Part shown: positions 19,867 to 23,982 of the stretch, one piece after another
How positions within the stretch are numbered: the first letter of the stretch is position 1
Layout: every line of letters starts with the position of its first letter
Source: Glacieibacterium arshaanense
GTDB taxonomy: Bacteria; Pseudomonadota; Alphaproteobacteria; Sphingomonadales; Sphingomonadaceae
Direction: 5' to 3'
NCBI RefSeq assembly: GCF_004681125.1
Contig: NZ_SIHO01000003.1
Location: 152,122 to 216,121, forward strand
DNA length: 64,000 nt
Position numbers and translations under genes: made by a program
Notes under the pieces: model-generated
Told to the model about the DNA's origin: nothing
Seen by the model: only the letters and a program-made list of their open reading frames with translations
Database searches by the model: none

Positions 19867-20523
19867 TTACCAGCGCAGCACTGGCGTCAACAGCACCCGC
19901 GCGGCAATTGCACCGAGCAGAATCGCGCCGCCGAACCACACCAGCACATACAGCGGATCGGCGTGCGGGCAGCTCCAAGCGAACACGAACGCGCCCCAGC
20001 CGCTCGCCGCGACACCGGCAGCCGTGGCGGTGGCGCGCGGCCGCGTCGGCGCGGCGCGGCGCGCGAGGAACAGGATGGCGGCAAGCACCGGCAGCGACAT
20101 CAGCAGCGACCACATCAGGCACAACATGCCTTCGTGCATGTCGAGGCGCAGCATCACCGGCGCCGGCACCGCCGCGACGCCCGCCAGCACTGCGCCGACG
20201 AGCAGCGCCACTGCAGTGGCTGCCGCCAACCCGCGCCATAGCGGCCGTGCGCGTGTTTCGGGGTCGAGCGCCGCCAGCACCGCGATACCGCCCGCCAGCG
20301 CCAGCCCGAGGCAGGTCAGCATCTTCCACCAGAACATCGGCCCGCGCATCGCTTCGTGCAGGTCGGCGCGCTGATGACCCAGCCACAGCGCCAGCCCGAG
20401 TTCGGTCAGCGCCACACCGCCGAGGATCGCGGCATCGCGCCAGACCCGGCGCGGCACCACCGGCTGCAGATCATCGACCAGCCGGCCGATCATGACCTCG
20501 CTCGAATTCCCCCTAGGCGACAT
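19867..20523 (-). CDS. nrsF: NrsF family (DUF1109) anti-sigma factor
   Basis: This 218-residue inner-membrane protein has about six hydrophobic helices and matches the DUF1109/NrsF family, which holds the SigF-type ECF sigma factor inactive in Caulobacter. Conserved features seen are WWKM in the second helix, a cysteine in MLCLMW and a second cysteine in WSCPHADPL. Cysteine pairs are thought to take part in sensing metal or oxidative stress. Three ATG codons lie in a row at 20529-20521. GAAGGA is best spaced from the last, at 20523, which I chose. The gene overlaps the 3' end of the sigma gene by 11 bp, as expected for a sigma/anti-sigma pair. Confidence 0.85.
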   Translation of the reverse strand: MSPRGNSSEVMIGRLVDDLQPVVPRRVWRDAAILGGVALTELGLALWLGHQRADLHEAMRGPMFWWKMLTCLGLALAGGIAVLAALDPETRARPLWRGLAAATAVALLVGAVLAGVAAVPAPVMLRLDMHEGMLCLMWSLLMSLPVLAAILFLARRAAPTRPRATATAAGVAASGWGAFVFAWSCPHADPLYVLVWFGGAILLGAIAARVLLTPVLRW

Positions 20524-21070
20524 CATCATATCCTTCGACCAGCGCGGCGAGCTTGCTCAAACCACGGTGGATGTTGACCTTGACCAGCGCCGGACTTTGC
20601 CCGGTCAGCAGCGCTGCCTCGTCGATACTGTGACCGCCGAGCTTGACCAGCCGGATGACATCGGCCTGCCCGGGCTTGAGCGTACCGAGCAGTTCGCTGA
20701 GCACGGCGGCGCTGATGACGGTGTCACCGTGGTCGCCGATTTGCAGATAGTCGGGGATGTCATCATCGAGCGGCTCGGTCCGGTGGACGGTCATCGTGCG
20801 CAGGCGGTCGATCCATTTGTAGCGCGCGATCGCCGCCAGCCACGGCGCAAAGGCGCGCACCGGATCATAGGTGTGGCGCTTGTTGTGGATCGCCAGCAGC
20901 GCGTCCTGCACTGCGTCGTCGACGTGTGCCTCGGGCAGCCGGCGCCGGTAATAGCGCGCCAGCCAGCTGCGCAGTTCGTCGAGCAACAACCGGTATGCCG
21001 CTTTGTCGCCGCGCTGCGCCGCCGCCATCAGGCGGCCATGGACGTCATCGCTGCGCGGCGCAGTGGCCAT
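20513..21070 (-). CDS. sigF: ECF RNA polymerase sigma factor, SigF-like
   Basis: This 185-residue sigma-70 family protein has region 2 (LARYYRRRLPEAHVDDAVQD and FAPWLAAIARYKWIDRLR) and region 4 (LGTLKPGQADVIRLVKL, then a helix-turn-helix SIDEAALLTGQSPALVKVN). Its start overlaps the stop of the molybdoenzyme gene as TGATG, and the NrsF gene follows with overlap. Together these identify the NrsF-controlled SigF group. A GTAACC-N16-CGAA sequence upstream of the first gene of this set fits the promoter I recall for this sigma, so the operon is probably autoregulated. In Caulobacter the system responds to chromate, cadmium or oxidative stress. Confidence 0.87.
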   Translation of the reverse strand: MATAPRSDDVHGRLMAAAQRGDKAAYRLLLDELRSWLARYYRRRLPEAHVDDAVQDALLAIHNKRHTYDPVRAFAPWLAAIARYKWIDRLRTMTVHRTEPLDDDIPDYLQIGDHGDTVISAAVLSELLGTLKPGQADVIRLVKLGGHSIDEAALLTGQSPALVKVNIHRGLSKLAALVEGYDDVA

Positions 21071-21846
21071 CAGATACCCGCGAACCATTCATAGCCGCGG
21101 TCGGGCCAATAGCCGCCCTTGCCGGCGCCAAAGCCCTTGAAGCTGTCGACCAGCCGGATGCCCATCACATATTTGGCGTGCTTGTAGCCCAACTGGCGTT
21201 CGACGCGCAGCCGCAGCGGCGCGCCGTGCGGCACGCTCAGCGTCTCGCCGTTCATCGTGTGCGCCAGAATGGTCTGCGGGTGGAAGGCGTCGACCATATC
21301 GATGCTCTCGTAATACAGCCCCGCCGACTGGTCGCCGCCCTTCGACGCTTCGCCGCCGTAATTGTCGGCGCACAGGAACATCGCGTAGCGCGCCGTCGGC
21401 AAGACCCCCGCCGCCTTGAGGATGTGCCCCAACTGCGGCCCGGTCCATTTGCCGATCGCGCTCCAGCCCTCGACACAGTCGTGGCGGGTAATCTGCGTGC
21501 GCTGAGGTGCGGCGCGGAGCTGCGCCAGCGACAGCGACAGCGGCCGCGCCACCAGCCCGTCGACCTTCAGGCGCCAATCGACGAAATCGCTTTCGCTGTG
21601 TGCCAGATAGTCATCGGTATCGACGCTGCGCGAGCCATTGGCCTTGAACACCGGCGACATATCGGCCTCGCTGAACTCGCGCGCCAGCGCGTTGCGGCCG
21701 ATCAGCCGCTGCCAGCGCTCGGTGGCACCTTCGGCGCTTTCGAGCACCGACACCATCTTGGGGTTGTAGCTCAGCTTGTCGCAGCCGCTGAGCAGCAGCC
21801 CGCCGGCACCGACGGTGACAAGGCTGCGGCGTGTCAAAATCGTCAT
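21070..21846 (-). CDS. YedY/sulfite-oxidase-like molybdopterin-dependent oxidoreductase
   Basis: This 258-residue exported molybdenum enzyme belongs to the sulfite oxidase/MsrP superfamily. The N-terminus (TRRSLVTVGAGGLLLSGC) combines a twin-arginine signal with a lipobox cysteine, which suggests a Tat-exported lipoprotein. The Mo-coordinating cysteine is in RHDCVEGW, and the later block SVPHGAPLRLRVERQLGYKH is typical of the fold. The ATG at 21846 overlaps the stop of the cytochrome b gene as ATGA, so the cytochrome is the probable membrane electron partner. A likely role is reductive repair or oxidation of sulfur compounds under stress, by analogy with MsrPQ. Confidence 0.86.
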   Translation of the reverse strand: MTILTRRSLVTVGAGGLLLSGCDKLSYNPKMVSVLESAEGATERWQRLIGRNALAREFSEADMSPVFKANGSRSVDTDDYLAHSESDFVDWRLKVDGLVARPLSLSLAQLRAAPQRTQITRHDCVEGWSAIGKWTGPQLGHILKAAGVLPTARYAMFLCADNYGGEASKGGDQSAGLYYESIDMVDAFHPQTILAHTMNGETLSVPHGAPLRLRVERQLGYKHAKYVMGIRLVDSFKGFGAGKGGYWPDRGYEWFAGI

Positions 21847-22700
21847 GCCGCATCTCCCAGGTCGAACCGGCCGGTAATCATCGAGCGGATCTGGTTGATC
21901 GGCCCGGCCAGCAGCACCATCAGCACATGGACGACGACGAACGCGACGATGCTCCATGCCGCGATGAAGTGGATCGAGCGCGCCGACTGGCGGCCGCCGA
22001 ACATCTCGCTCAGCCAGTGCCACGCCGCGTCGTTCGACGGCGACATTGTCAGCCCGGTGAGCACCATCAGGATCAGCAGCACGATGACGCCCGAATAGGC
22101 GAGCTTTTGCAGGATGTGATAGCGTTTGGCGTCCTCGCCCTTGGGGAATTGCAGCTTGGCGTGGCTGACAATGTCATGCGCGATGTTCGACGGGCGCAGC
22201 TCGGCGAGGTCAGGGACGATGTCCTTGCGCAAATGGCCGCTGACGATGCCGCCGACCAGATAGGTCAGGCCGTTGAGGATCAGCACCCAGGCGAAAAAGA
22301 AGTGCCAGCGCCGGCCGGTCGCAAGGTCGCGCGCCGACGGCAGGGTAATCCAGTGCGGAAAGCCGATCGCGGTACTGACGCCGTCGCCATTGTTCGACAC
22401 GCCGAGCACGCCGGTGGTGTCGAACATCAGCGGGCCGATGCGGGTCTTGCCCGCCATCGCGCCGTCTGGGCCGGGGATGGCGCCGATTTCGAGCCAGCGT
22501 TTACCGACATCGGCATCGGCACCATATTGCCCCCAATACAGCCCCGGATGCGCGTTGAAGATCTGCAGCCCGCTCATCAGCAGCACCGCCACCGCGAGAA
22601 CATTGGTCCAGTGCGTCAGCCGCGTCAGCAGCGCATGGCGATAAAACAGTGGCCGCTGCGGCGGCGCCATCGTCTCGCTCATCGGTATCGCGGTGGTCAT
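21843..22700 (-). CDS. Cytochrome b561/b6-type membrane protein
   Basis: This 285-residue di-haem membrane protein has about four main helices. Candidate haem ligands include the histidines in LTHWTNVLAV, RRWHFFFAWV, IHFIAAW and VVVHVLM. A loop of about 60 residues follows the first helix. The ATG at 22700 has GGGGGAAG upstream. It is the electron-transfer partner expected for the overlapping molybdoenzyme, shuttling electrons between the quinone pool and the periplasmic enzyme. It belongs to the SigF/NrsF set and is preceded by a hairpin that may reduce read-through from the small gene upstream. Confidence 0.85.
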   Translation of the reverse strand: MTTAIPMSETMAPPQRPLFYRHALLTRLTHWTNVLAVAVLLMSGLQIFNAHPGLYWGQYGADADVGKRWLEIGAIPGPDGAMAGKTRIGPLMFDTTGVLGVSNNGDGVSTAIGFPHWITLPSARDLATGRRWHFFFAWVLILNGLTYLVGGIVSGHLRKDIVPDLAELRPSNIAHDIVSHAKLQFPKGEDAKRYHILQKLAYSGVIVLLILMVLTGLTMSPSNDAAWHWLSEMFGGRQSARSIHFIAAWSIVAFVVVHVLMVLLAGPINQIRSMITGRFDLGDAA

Positions 22701-22740
22701 GCGGCTTCCCCCCTCGGGCTGGTCACTCTAGCAGCATTTG

Positions 22741-22765
22741 GCCGGCAGCCAAGCTGGCTGCCGGC
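22741..22765 (-). terminator. Intergenic hairpin in the SigF operon
   Basis: A perfect 10-bp stem (gccggcagcc with ggctgccggc) surrounds a 5-nt loop, 8 bp after the stop of the small MxxD-like gene. There is no T-run, so it may act as a processing or stability hairpin rather than a full terminator. Confidence 0.5.
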
Positions 22766-22772
22766 AGTGTGC

Positions 22773-23030
22773 TTACGGCTTGGGCGCGGCCATGGCGTCG
22801 GACGCCATCGCGTCGGGCTTTGCGGCAGGCTTTGCGGCAGGCTTGGCTTTGGGCTTCGCCATCGCGTCGGCTTTCATCGGTGCGGCCATGGCATCGGTCT
22901 TTTTCGGTGCCGTCATCGCGTCGGCTTTCATCGGCGCGGCCATCGCGTCGGTCGTGGCGGGCGCGGCCGATACGGCGCCGGCAAAGGCCAGCATCAGCGC
23001 GGCAGTGGTGAGCGTCATCATGGTCTTCAT
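22773..23030 (-). CDS. Small exported low-complexity protein with DAM/MKAD repeats
   Basis: This 85-residue protein has a signal peptide (MKTMMTLTTAALMLAFAGAVSA) and then a low-complexity mature part. That part is built from repeats such as DAMAAPMKA and DAMTAPKKT, then Ala-Lys-Pro repeats. It resembles the small MxKDx-type pentapeptide repeat proteins found with stress operons, though the spacing here is longer. No catalytic residue or cysteine is present. Its position between DUF1223 and cytochrome b561 on the same strand suggests SigF control. Metal binding or a periplasmic protective role is possible but unproven. Confidence 0.7.
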   Translation of the reverse strand: MKTMMTLTTAALMLAFAGAVSAAPATTDAMAAPMKADAMTAPKKTDAMAAPMKADAMAKPKAKPAAKPAAKPDAMASDAMAAPKP

Positions 23031-23122
23031 CTTGGGTCTTCCTTGGGGTTCGCCGGCAGCGGGCCGGGGGGATCGGGCGGGGATGCGCACGATGGGGTGG
23101 GGCGCGCCATGCGCGCGAAACG

Positions 23123-23806
23123 TCAGCTACGGGTAGCCGCCAGGATCGGGCCGCCATTGGCAGACTGGAGCAATATCGCGGTGGCAAGTCCGGGCGTTGC
23201 TGCCGGCACGCCGAAATTGACCGGCGTGCCGGTCCAGCCACCCAGTCGCGTCAGGCTGCGGACGATATTGCGGTGGGGCAGCGTCTTGCCGCCGTTCTCG
23301 CCAGCCTTGACCGCGACGTTCAGCGTGCGCGGGTCATAGCGCACCAGCCAGACATCGGCACCGCCGCGCGGCGCGGTGCCGCGGCCGATGGCGAGCGTGC
23401 CGTCGTTCAGTGCCAGCGCCGGCGCACCTGTCGGCAGCGGCTTCAGCGCGTCCGCGAGCGCACTGGCGTTGGCGCCGACGAGGTCGCTGCGGCCGTTGAC
23501 GACGACCTGCGGTGTCCAGACATTGTCGTGATGCAGGCCCTTGGCATAGTCCCACTGGCGCTGCGTATTCGCGCGCGTGGCAAAGCCGTCCTTCCAGCCG
23601 AGCTGGTCCCAATAGGTCACCGCAAAACTCAGCGCGAGCACATCGGGACGCGCCGCGATCAGCGCGTTGACGTTGGCATTGGCCGGCGGGCACGAAGAAC
23701 AGCCCTGGCTCTGGAACAGCTCGACCACGGTCACCGGTGGCGGTGCAGCGAGCACGGGTGCGGCAAGTGCGGCAAGCAAGGTGGCAATGACGAAACGGGC
23801 GGGCAT
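23123..23806 (-). CDS. DUF1223 thioredoxin-like exported protein
   Basis: This 227-residue protein has a signal peptide (MPARFVIATLLAALAAPVLA) and a DUF1223 domain, a thioredoxin-fold family of unknown function. The redox-like motif is ELFQSQGCSSCPP, a CxxC at the expected place. Later blocks TYWDQLGWKD and TPQVVVNGR match the family. It is the first gene of the leftward SigF/NrsF set. A GTAACC-N16-CGAA sequence lies 44-69 bp upstream of its start. A periplasmic thiol-redox role under metal or oxidant stress fits this context. Confidence 0.85.
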   Translation of the reverse strand: MPARFVIATLLAALAAPVLAAPPPVTVVELFQSQGCSSCPPANANVNALIAARPDVLALSFAVTYWDQLGWKDGFATRANTQRQWDYAKGLHHDNVWTPQVVVNGRSDLVGANASALADALKPLPTGAPALALNDGTLAIGRGTAPRGGADVWLVRYDPRTLNVAVKAGENGGKTLPHRNIVRSLTRLGGWTGTPVNFGVPAATPGLATAILLQSANGGPILAATRS

Positions 23807-23849
23807 ATCCGGTCTCCGTGGTCGCGGCGCGCAACCTGGTACCGGCTTG

Positions 23850-23875
23850 TTCGCCGCTGCCGCGGCTGCGGTTAC
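23850..23875 (-). promoter_or_regulatory. Candidate SigF-type promoter
   Basis: On the minus strand GTAACC (23875-23870) and CGAA (23853-23850) are separated by exactly 16 bp, upstream of the DUF1223 gene. From memory this is the element reported for Caulobacter SigF promoters. I did not find the same spacing elsewhere upstream of a gene while reading the window. Confidence 0.65.
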
Positions 23876-23982
23876 AGCGCGATCGAAAAAATTGCGCGCA
23901 TTCGGGCTTGTCAGCGTGGCGCTTAAGCGCGAAGCCAAGCGCGGATGACACGACCGCGCTGGCGGACGAAGGGGAATAAGCG

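Follow-up and report, generated by a model that had tools for sequence, protein, structure and literature searches.

Why should a SigF-type ECF sigma factor and its NrsF anti-sigma factor be encoded at the tail of an operon headed by a DUF1223 gene, and on what do the products of that operon act? We examined this question in a 64,000-nucleotide stretch of the Glacieibacterium arshaanense genome (the window), in which the relevant features are the following:

19867..20529, minus strand: NrsF anti-sigma factor (Pfam PF06532, 128 bits; cut-off 26.8)
20513..21070, minus strand: SigF-type ECF sigma factor (PF04542 and PF08281; ECF16 by its partner and promoter)
21070..21846, minus strand: YedY-like molybdopterin reductase subunit (PF00174, Oxidored_molyb, 110.7 bits; Tat-like signal, lipobox LLSGC-D)
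21843..22700, minus strand: cytochrome b561-type membrane subunit, presumed electron donor (PF01292, Ni_hydr_CYTB, 88 bits)
22773..23030, minus strand: Met-rich exported peptide, MrpX/BcrX-like, 85 aa, six DAM repeats
23123..23806, minus strand: DUF1223, exported thioredoxin-fold protein with CSSC (PF06764, 189 bits)
23850..23876, minus strand: predicted SigF (ECF16) promoter TGTAACC-N16-CGAA, an exact match 43 nt before the DUF1223 start codon

The leftward unit of six genes was confirmed. All six genes lie on the minus strand at the positions given in an earlier note on this DNA, five with the expected Pfam families, and the overlaps which that note described were borne out: ATGA joins the b561 and molybdenum (Mo) subunit genes, TGATG joins the Mo subunit and sigma genes, and the 11-bp overlap of sigma and NrsF is one of two values, 17 or 11 bp, set by the choice among three NrsF start ATGs. 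The Met-rich gene is separated from its neighbours by 92 bp on one side and 72 bp on the other, and co-transcription of all six genes is probable. A hairpin between the Met-rich and b561 genes has an 11-bp stem, but the stretch has z = -0.19 and the hairpin was therefore left unused.

The protein encoded directly downstream of the sigma factor far exceeds the PF06532 cut-off, and scores 67.6 against the NCBIfam equivalog NF042994, below its cut-off of 300. It has cysteines at 73, 137 and 187, of which C137 and C187 are 50 residues apart, the spacing of the functional cysteine pair. Among 103 NrsF proteins in our census, a pair exactly 50 apart occurs in 53, and a pair 46-54 apart in 70.

The proposed promoter, GTAACC-N16-CGAA at 23850-23875, is exact, with a T just before it, and the earlier note was right to liken it to the Caulobacter SigF promoter, the published consensus being the same. 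GTAACC-N15-17-CGAA matches once in the 64-kb window against 0.13 expected, and at least once in 12 of 100 shuffles. A genome scan had been proposed as a check and was run in part, with a divided outcome. The loose motif was not enriched genome-wide (9 matches against 23 in the reversed control), nor was YGTAACN16-18CGAA (13 against 57), so that the loose motif alone is uninformative. The full published ECF16 consensus, tGTAACc-N16-CGAA, has only two matches in the 3.26-Mb genome, one 43 nt before the operon and one 9 nt before an msrB gene, and thus does front another plausible target. A further candidate site, with one mismatch, is found 35 nt upstream of an exported msrB-msrA pair, directly in front of msrB. 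TGTAACC-N16-CGRA gives five genome sites against 4 in the reversed control, an excess so slight that the argument rests on where the sites lie; moreover, this pattern was chosen after the CGGA site had been seen, making that site post hoc but not the CGAA sites. Downstream genes were read at four sites (L135, L238, L239 and L240). A loose-motif match inside a TVGYG-type channel gene, ~1.2 kb before msrA, was rejected as a promoter. The predicted operon promoter is convincing, and SigF would be expected to bind it.

The promoter is kept in two near relatives, L044 and L037. In L037, a same-genus assembly, the DUF1223 and Met-rich genes are missing and the promoter still precedes the remaining genes; the Met-rich gene is likewise absent from L044, whose reductase is 98% identical, and from L046. 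More widely, of 99 alphaproteobacterial loci 68 have the motif near sigF, compared with 1 when reversed and 3.7 on average when shuffled; the window enters this count as a miss since its promoter is 2.8 kb from sigF. A separate motif scan found 15 of 28 with the window and L037 outside its limits, or 17 of 28 with their known motifs included. A single autoregulated SigF/NrsF unit, as the earlier note had it, is thus well supported at the level of sequence by the conserved promoter and by the enrichment of the motif at SigF/NrsF loci.

Among 104 fetched SigF/NrsF loci, b561-Mo, Met-rich and DUF1223 genes recur, and msrA and/or msrB is found in 12, as against none of 62 SigF-free reductase loci. 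Against this, b561-Mo is nearby in only 8 of the 104 loci, 84 lack all four gene types that were sought, and an msr gene is nearby in only 1 of 18 SigF-linked reductase loci. The census profiles were built from the window's proteins and may miss distant kin, although an E. coli MsrP query returned the same 8 loci; an E. coli MsrQ query matched none of the 104. In three loci from one genus of another family, b561-Mo-SigF-NrsF lie on the same strand with msrA-msrB divergent, and both arms have motifs. At reductase loci (80, of which 77 extended far enough upstream), 10 of 16 SigF-linked and 5 of 61 unlinked cases are preceded by the motif, but the reversed control also scored often among the linked cases (6 of 16, as compared with 0 of 61 unlinked) and Phyllobacterium and its near kin supply 12 of the 16 linked rows, and the test is consequently weak. 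The Fisher P of 6e-6 omits L044, whose contig ends inside sigF.

What, then, is the unit for? The earlier note envisaged thiol and sulfur repair in the envelope; this should be narrowed to methionine sulfoxide, msrB and msrBA lying behind the two other SigF-type sites. Most likely, the unit protects envelope proteins from oxidised methionine. ECF16 control of methionine-sulfoxide reductases and MrpX-type peptides has already been published, and the published ECF16 inducers conflict with one another. In Caulobacter, Cr, Cd and Cu induce the SigF genes but peroxide does not, and sigF itself is not strongly autoregulated; in S. meliloti, neither H2O2 nor Cd nor chromate elicited a response from RpoE7 reporters. 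The inducer of the present operon is presumably an oxidant or a soft metal. One might instead see here a copper or heavy-metal unit, in which soft metals are what NrsF senses, copper is bound or handled by the peptide and by DUF1223, and the substrate of the Mo enzyme is a sulfur metabolite. The response of Caulobacter SigF to Cr, Cd and Cu and the Cu sensitivity of a sigF mutant would suit this, as would a Met-rich peptide with no Cys and a CxxC in DUF1223. However, the search of this genome found no genes for DUF2282 or DUF692, which SigF targets in Caulobacter, and methionine-sulfoxide reductase genes lie behind the two other SigF-type sites; we regard a metal unit as unlikely. A literature search on bufferin and SigF yielded nothing useful.

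The case for methionine oxidation draws on the peptide and on the b561/Mo pair. The peptide has 8 Met in the 63 residues after its assumed signal (binomial P 4e-4, with the other operon proteins as reference). It matches no Pfam or NCBIfam model, TIGR02953 included; against this model, six neighbours of reductase/SigF loci gave two passes, three scores of 35.7-40.2 versus a cut-off of 41, and one without a match. With its Met repeat, a signal peptide judged by eye and a gene near the reductase in a SigF unit, this MxxD protein resembles MrpX/BcrX-type Met-rich peptides, and its gene is probably under SigF control. Met-rich reading frames were flagged in 12 of the 104 census loci; six were kept by eye (the window, L144, L145, L172, L205 and L222) and six dropped (L146, L161, L162, L175, L218 and L226).

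The Mo subunit falls below the curated MsrP (NF003767) cut-off, 88.3 against 207 bits, so that family membership does not tell what its substrate is. In a tree with long branches, the b561/YedY-like pair falls among b561-linked reductases, in a clade separate from E. coli MsrP, and 86 of 89 reductase homologues have a lipobox by pattern. No MsrQ-type PF01794 gene was matched in the genome; the membrane partner in the operon is PF01292, from which electrons would flow to the Mo lipoprotein. Since the Mo subunit is so far from the MsrP cut-off and sulfite oxidases share its fold family, the pair could conceivably oxidise sulfite or reduce small sulfoxides, tied to methionine oxidation through co-regulation only. 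Yet of the NCBIfam models MsrP fits it best (88 bits, with SorA at 47), its relatives are found beside Met-rich peptides, a plasmid set in ETEC among them, and a UPEC set described as cytochrome b, Msr subunit and Met-rich peptide, of which we assume the ETEC set to be a homologue, protects against peroxide. We therefore give this reading little credence, and methionine sulfoxide is the probable substrate. It is very improbable that the promoter match arose by chance and the genes are transcribed separately, as the loose motif and the gaps around the small gene might suggest, given that the promoter is conserved in two relatives, that the full motif is rare and well placed genome-wide, and that the motif is strongly enriched at SigF loci.

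DUF1223 passes PF06764 (189 against 30.7 bits), scores 121 bits against structure 2axo, and has GCSSCPP in all 17 homologues found across the fetched loci, counting the one in the window; the literature found on it gives no function. Its role in the unit may be a thiol one. Tentatively, and with considerable doubt, it could be the regulon's secreted thioredoxin-like reductant or sulfenic-acid reductase, recycling exported MsrA/MsrB and other oxidised envelope thiols.

Several known systems are close. Brucella bcrXQP/bcrS-abcS (ECF16) likewise has a Met-rich peptide, Msr membrane and catalytic subunits, a sigma and an NrsF-type anti-sigma factor, with the same promoter class and induction by HOCl; it comprises two operons rather than one, has no DUF1223 noted in the accessible part of that account, and includes BcrQ, described as MsrQ-like. 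Azospira suillum sigF/nrsF, yedYZ and mrpX, according to secondary sources, shares the sigma/anti-sigma pair, the methionine sulfoxide reductase and the Met-rich peptide. Bradyrhizobium EcfF/OsrA, also ECF16 and with the same Cys spacing, controls three methionine sulfoxide reductases and a periplasmic thioredoxin; the available part of its description, in contrast to our operon, notes neither b561/Mo nor a Met-rich peptide. Caulobacter SigF/NrsF (NrsF C131/C181) shares the consensus and has a YedY (MsrPQ-like) pair in its regulon, but that pair is unlinked to sigF, and its DUF2282/DUF692 operons lack counterparts among the genes found here. UPEC c3566-c3568, by description a cytochrome b, an Msr catalytic subunit and a Met-rich peptide, is under two-component control (OrhK/OrhR) rather than SigF; the similar ETEC set has PF01292 and a lipobox as here, in a stretch without DUF1223. 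E. coli MsrP-MsrQ also couples a molybdopterin periplasmic subunit to a membrane heme subunit, but MsrQ is PF01794, and MsrP has no N-terminal lipobox and lies outside the b561-linked clade. The present locus differs in pairing its reductase with a b561 rather than MsrQ, in a catalytic lipoprotein that scores under the MsrP cut-off, and in having DUF1223 at the head of the operon with sigma/anti-sigma at its tail.

Gene content, the promoter and its conservation, the other sites and the family assignments can all be read from the DNA itself. With good confidence, we interpret the locus as an envelope-oxidation switch of the ECF16 (SigF/NrsF) kind, encoded at the 3' end of the operon that is its main target, and the products of this operon as acting on oxidised methionine. 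Oxidant or soft-metal stress would alter the membrane protein NrsF at C137/C187 and release SigF, which would transcribe the operon from 23876-23850 and probably also the exported msrB-msrA operon and the cytosolic msrB elsewhere in the genome. The Met-rich peptide may serve as a sacrificial substrate taking up oxidant; cytochrome b561 would pass quinol electrons to the membrane-anchored Mo lipoprotein, which would reduce methionine sulfoxide both in the Met-rich peptide and in proteins of the envelope, with DUF1223 supplying a thiol function.

The locus thus provides a sequence-defined, b561-linked and lipoprotein-anchored counterpart of MsrPQ in a genome without detected MsrQ, together with a predicted SigF regulon that is compact and made up of genes for methionine-sulfoxide repair. 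DUF1223 gains a regulatory context in which its function becomes testable and, were it the reductant, one sigma factor would induce thiol-based and quinol/molybdenum-based methionine repair together.

The gene coordinates in the window bear out the six leftward genes and the overlaps described in the earlier note. Their products include members of the NrsF, ECF sigma, Oxidored_molyb, cytochrome b561 and DUF1223 families of Pfam. The 85-residue ORF had no family match in Pfam or NCBIfam; its product carries six DAM repeats and, in the 63 residues past an assumed signal peptide, eight methionines, more than the other operon proteins would predict (P 4e-4). The operon promoter, TGTAACC-N16-CGAA, stops 43 nt short of the DUF1223 start. 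An 11-bp inverted repeat without a T run lies at 22741-22765, between the Met-rich and b561 genes, and the surrounding stretch folded no better than shuffled sequences.

A census of 387 sampled genomes of the class and 40 relatives found NrsF above the cut-off at 90 and 16 places, respectively, which left 104 SigF/NrsF loci, the window included, once overlaps were removed. GTAAC-N16-18-CGAA was present near sigF, on either strand, at 68 of 99 usable loci; the reversed pattern was there at 1 of 99, and shuffled sequence gave 3.7 of 99 on average. The motif was also located by scan at 15 of 28 target operons, or 17 of 28 with the window and L037 (an assembly of the window's genus) added, against 0 for the reversed control.

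Both promoter elements, -35 and -10, are kept exactly in L037 and in L044, a Polymorphobacter contig with a 98% identical reductase. L037 is without DUF1223 and the Met-rich gene, and its promoter lies directly 5' of b561. L044 retains DUF1223, and the Met-rich gene was found neither there (22773-23030 compared with L044:2799-2863) nor in another compared locus, L046; its absence from L044 would reflect either a gap in the assembly or a gene recently gained or lost. The comparison of these loci therefore indicates a variable peptide gene beside a stable promoter and b561-Mo core; draft assemblies could exaggerate this apparent turnover.

Across the 3,257,822 bases of the genome, TGTAACC-N16-CGRA occurs at five sites, hardly more than the four of the reversed control, and the weight of these sites comes from their positions, not their number. 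Two of the five have the CGAA form, one at this operon and one before a cytosolic msrB; a CGGA site precedes a pair of exported msr genes, and the remaining two lie inside ORFs of the opposite strand.

G000:C3:283313-283759, minus strand: cytosolic msrB (L135), encoding a 136-residue MsrB (PF01641); a full ECF16 consensus ends 9 nt before the ATG
G000:C1 about 209.1-210.3 kb, minus strand: exported (Tat-like) MsrB, then exported MsrA (L237, L240); TGTAACC-N16-CGGA upstream

A consensus so near the ATG of the cytosolic msrB would give an almost leaderless mRNA. The CGGA site lies 35 nt from the start of the exported MsrB, or 50 nt from a second in-frame ATG, and this msrB-msrA pair is predicted to belong to the SigF regulon in trans. 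A random site would fall in the 60 bp preceding one of three msr promoters with a probability of about 3e-5. No TGTAACC-N16-CGRA site precedes a second, cytosolic msrA.

Among the 104 census loci, b561 and Mo genes lie near SigF/NrsF at eight, Met-rich peptides at six, DUF1223 at four, and msrA and/or msrB at 12, the msr neighbours being identified from their resemblance to the L220 proteins, whether exported or not. At least one of these gene types occurs at 20 loci and none at 84. About 0.2 DUF1223 neighbours would be expected from the sampled frequency of the gene (194 of 387 genomes), on the assumption of about 215 copies and 4-Mb genomes. The reductase loci without SigF had msr genes in 0 of 62 cases, against the 12 of 104 (Fisher P 0.004, for sets that differ in taxa), and SigF-linked reductase loci in 1 of 18. 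In L187, L191 and L220, from one genus of another family, b561-Mo-SigF-NrsF lie on one strand with msrA-msrB divergent, and each of these two gene sets has a motif. L042:8388-12225, from the window's own family, holds on one strand the motif, msrB, msrA, SigF, NrsF, a second motif and DUF1223, with thiol-type Msr enzymes in place of b561/Mo. Several Phyllobacterium loci repeat the order DUF1223, Met-rich, b561, Mo, divergent from SigF-NrsF. L145:5611-6813 has DUF1223 together with a Met-rich peptide gene in divergent orientation to SigF/NrsF, and no b561/Mo was detected nearby. On a Klebsiella plasmid (L230:1-4892), DUF692, DoxX, MsrP and MsrQ adjoin an ECF sigma that has a zf-HC2 protein beside it instead of NrsF.

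On the MsrP model the Mo subunit reaches 88.3 bits, short of the cut-off of 207. In a tree that carried a long-branch warning, two MsrP rows were separated (97/95) from a clade of 72 of the 77 rows, to which proteins of an ETEC plasmid and a Burkholderia plasmid belong. All eight membrane partners tested matched PF01292; E. coli MsrQ is PF01794, for which no match was found in the window's genome. A lipobox pattern occurs in 86 of 89 Mo-subunit homologues, 81 with Asp at +2, a residue that would mean inner-membrane retention. The only other PF00174 match of the genome scores 64 on the MsrP model, which makes the operon the best candidate in this genome for a molybdenum-type periplasmic methionine sulfoxide reductase. 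On an ETEC plasmid (L124:3813-5462), a two-component system borders a set of cytochrome b561, Mo lipoprotein and Met-rich peptide. Some match to the Mo protein was found in 75 Escherichia plasmid records, a count that takes in those of MsrP type.

The window NrsF has C137 and C187, and the spacing of 50 is the same in the available accounts of Caulobacter NrsF (C131/C181; PMC3511200), the Brucella anti-sigma (C129/C179; PMC8315932) and Bradyrhizobium OsrA (C129/C179; PMC3420878). For OsrA, the portion consulted of the last describes an H2O2 response that requires C179, with C129 probably serving sigma binding, and proposes methionines as sensors; the window NrsF is 5.5% Met. Excerpts of PMC3511200 and PMC8224329 report that Caulobacter SigF genes are induced by Cr, Cd and Cu but not by peroxide, and in the available text of PMC6180224 S. 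meliloti RpoE7 reporters gave no response to H2O2, Cd or chromate. The earlier note had listed hypochlorite among possible inducers, and these results speak against a simple hypochlorite reading.

DUF1223, of which one copy was found in the genome, scores 121 bits against the solved homologue 2axo, and each of the 17 homologues that the fetched loci yielded has GCSSCPP. A published comparison, as excerpted, places the family in the thioredoxin-like clan (PMC3091736). Because the consulted part of PMC3420878 describes co-regulation of a Bradyrhizobium methionine sulfoxide reductase with a DsbD-like protein and a periplasmic thioredoxin, analogy suggests that DUF1223 may act as a reductant. Literature searches returned no paper on DUF1223 with a sigma factor, and for cytochrome b561, methionine sulfoxide and sigma factor only matches that were off-topic by title and abstract start. 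The operon is a real SigF unit with a predicted methionine-sulfoxide role, ordinary in kind and new in its assembly of parts.
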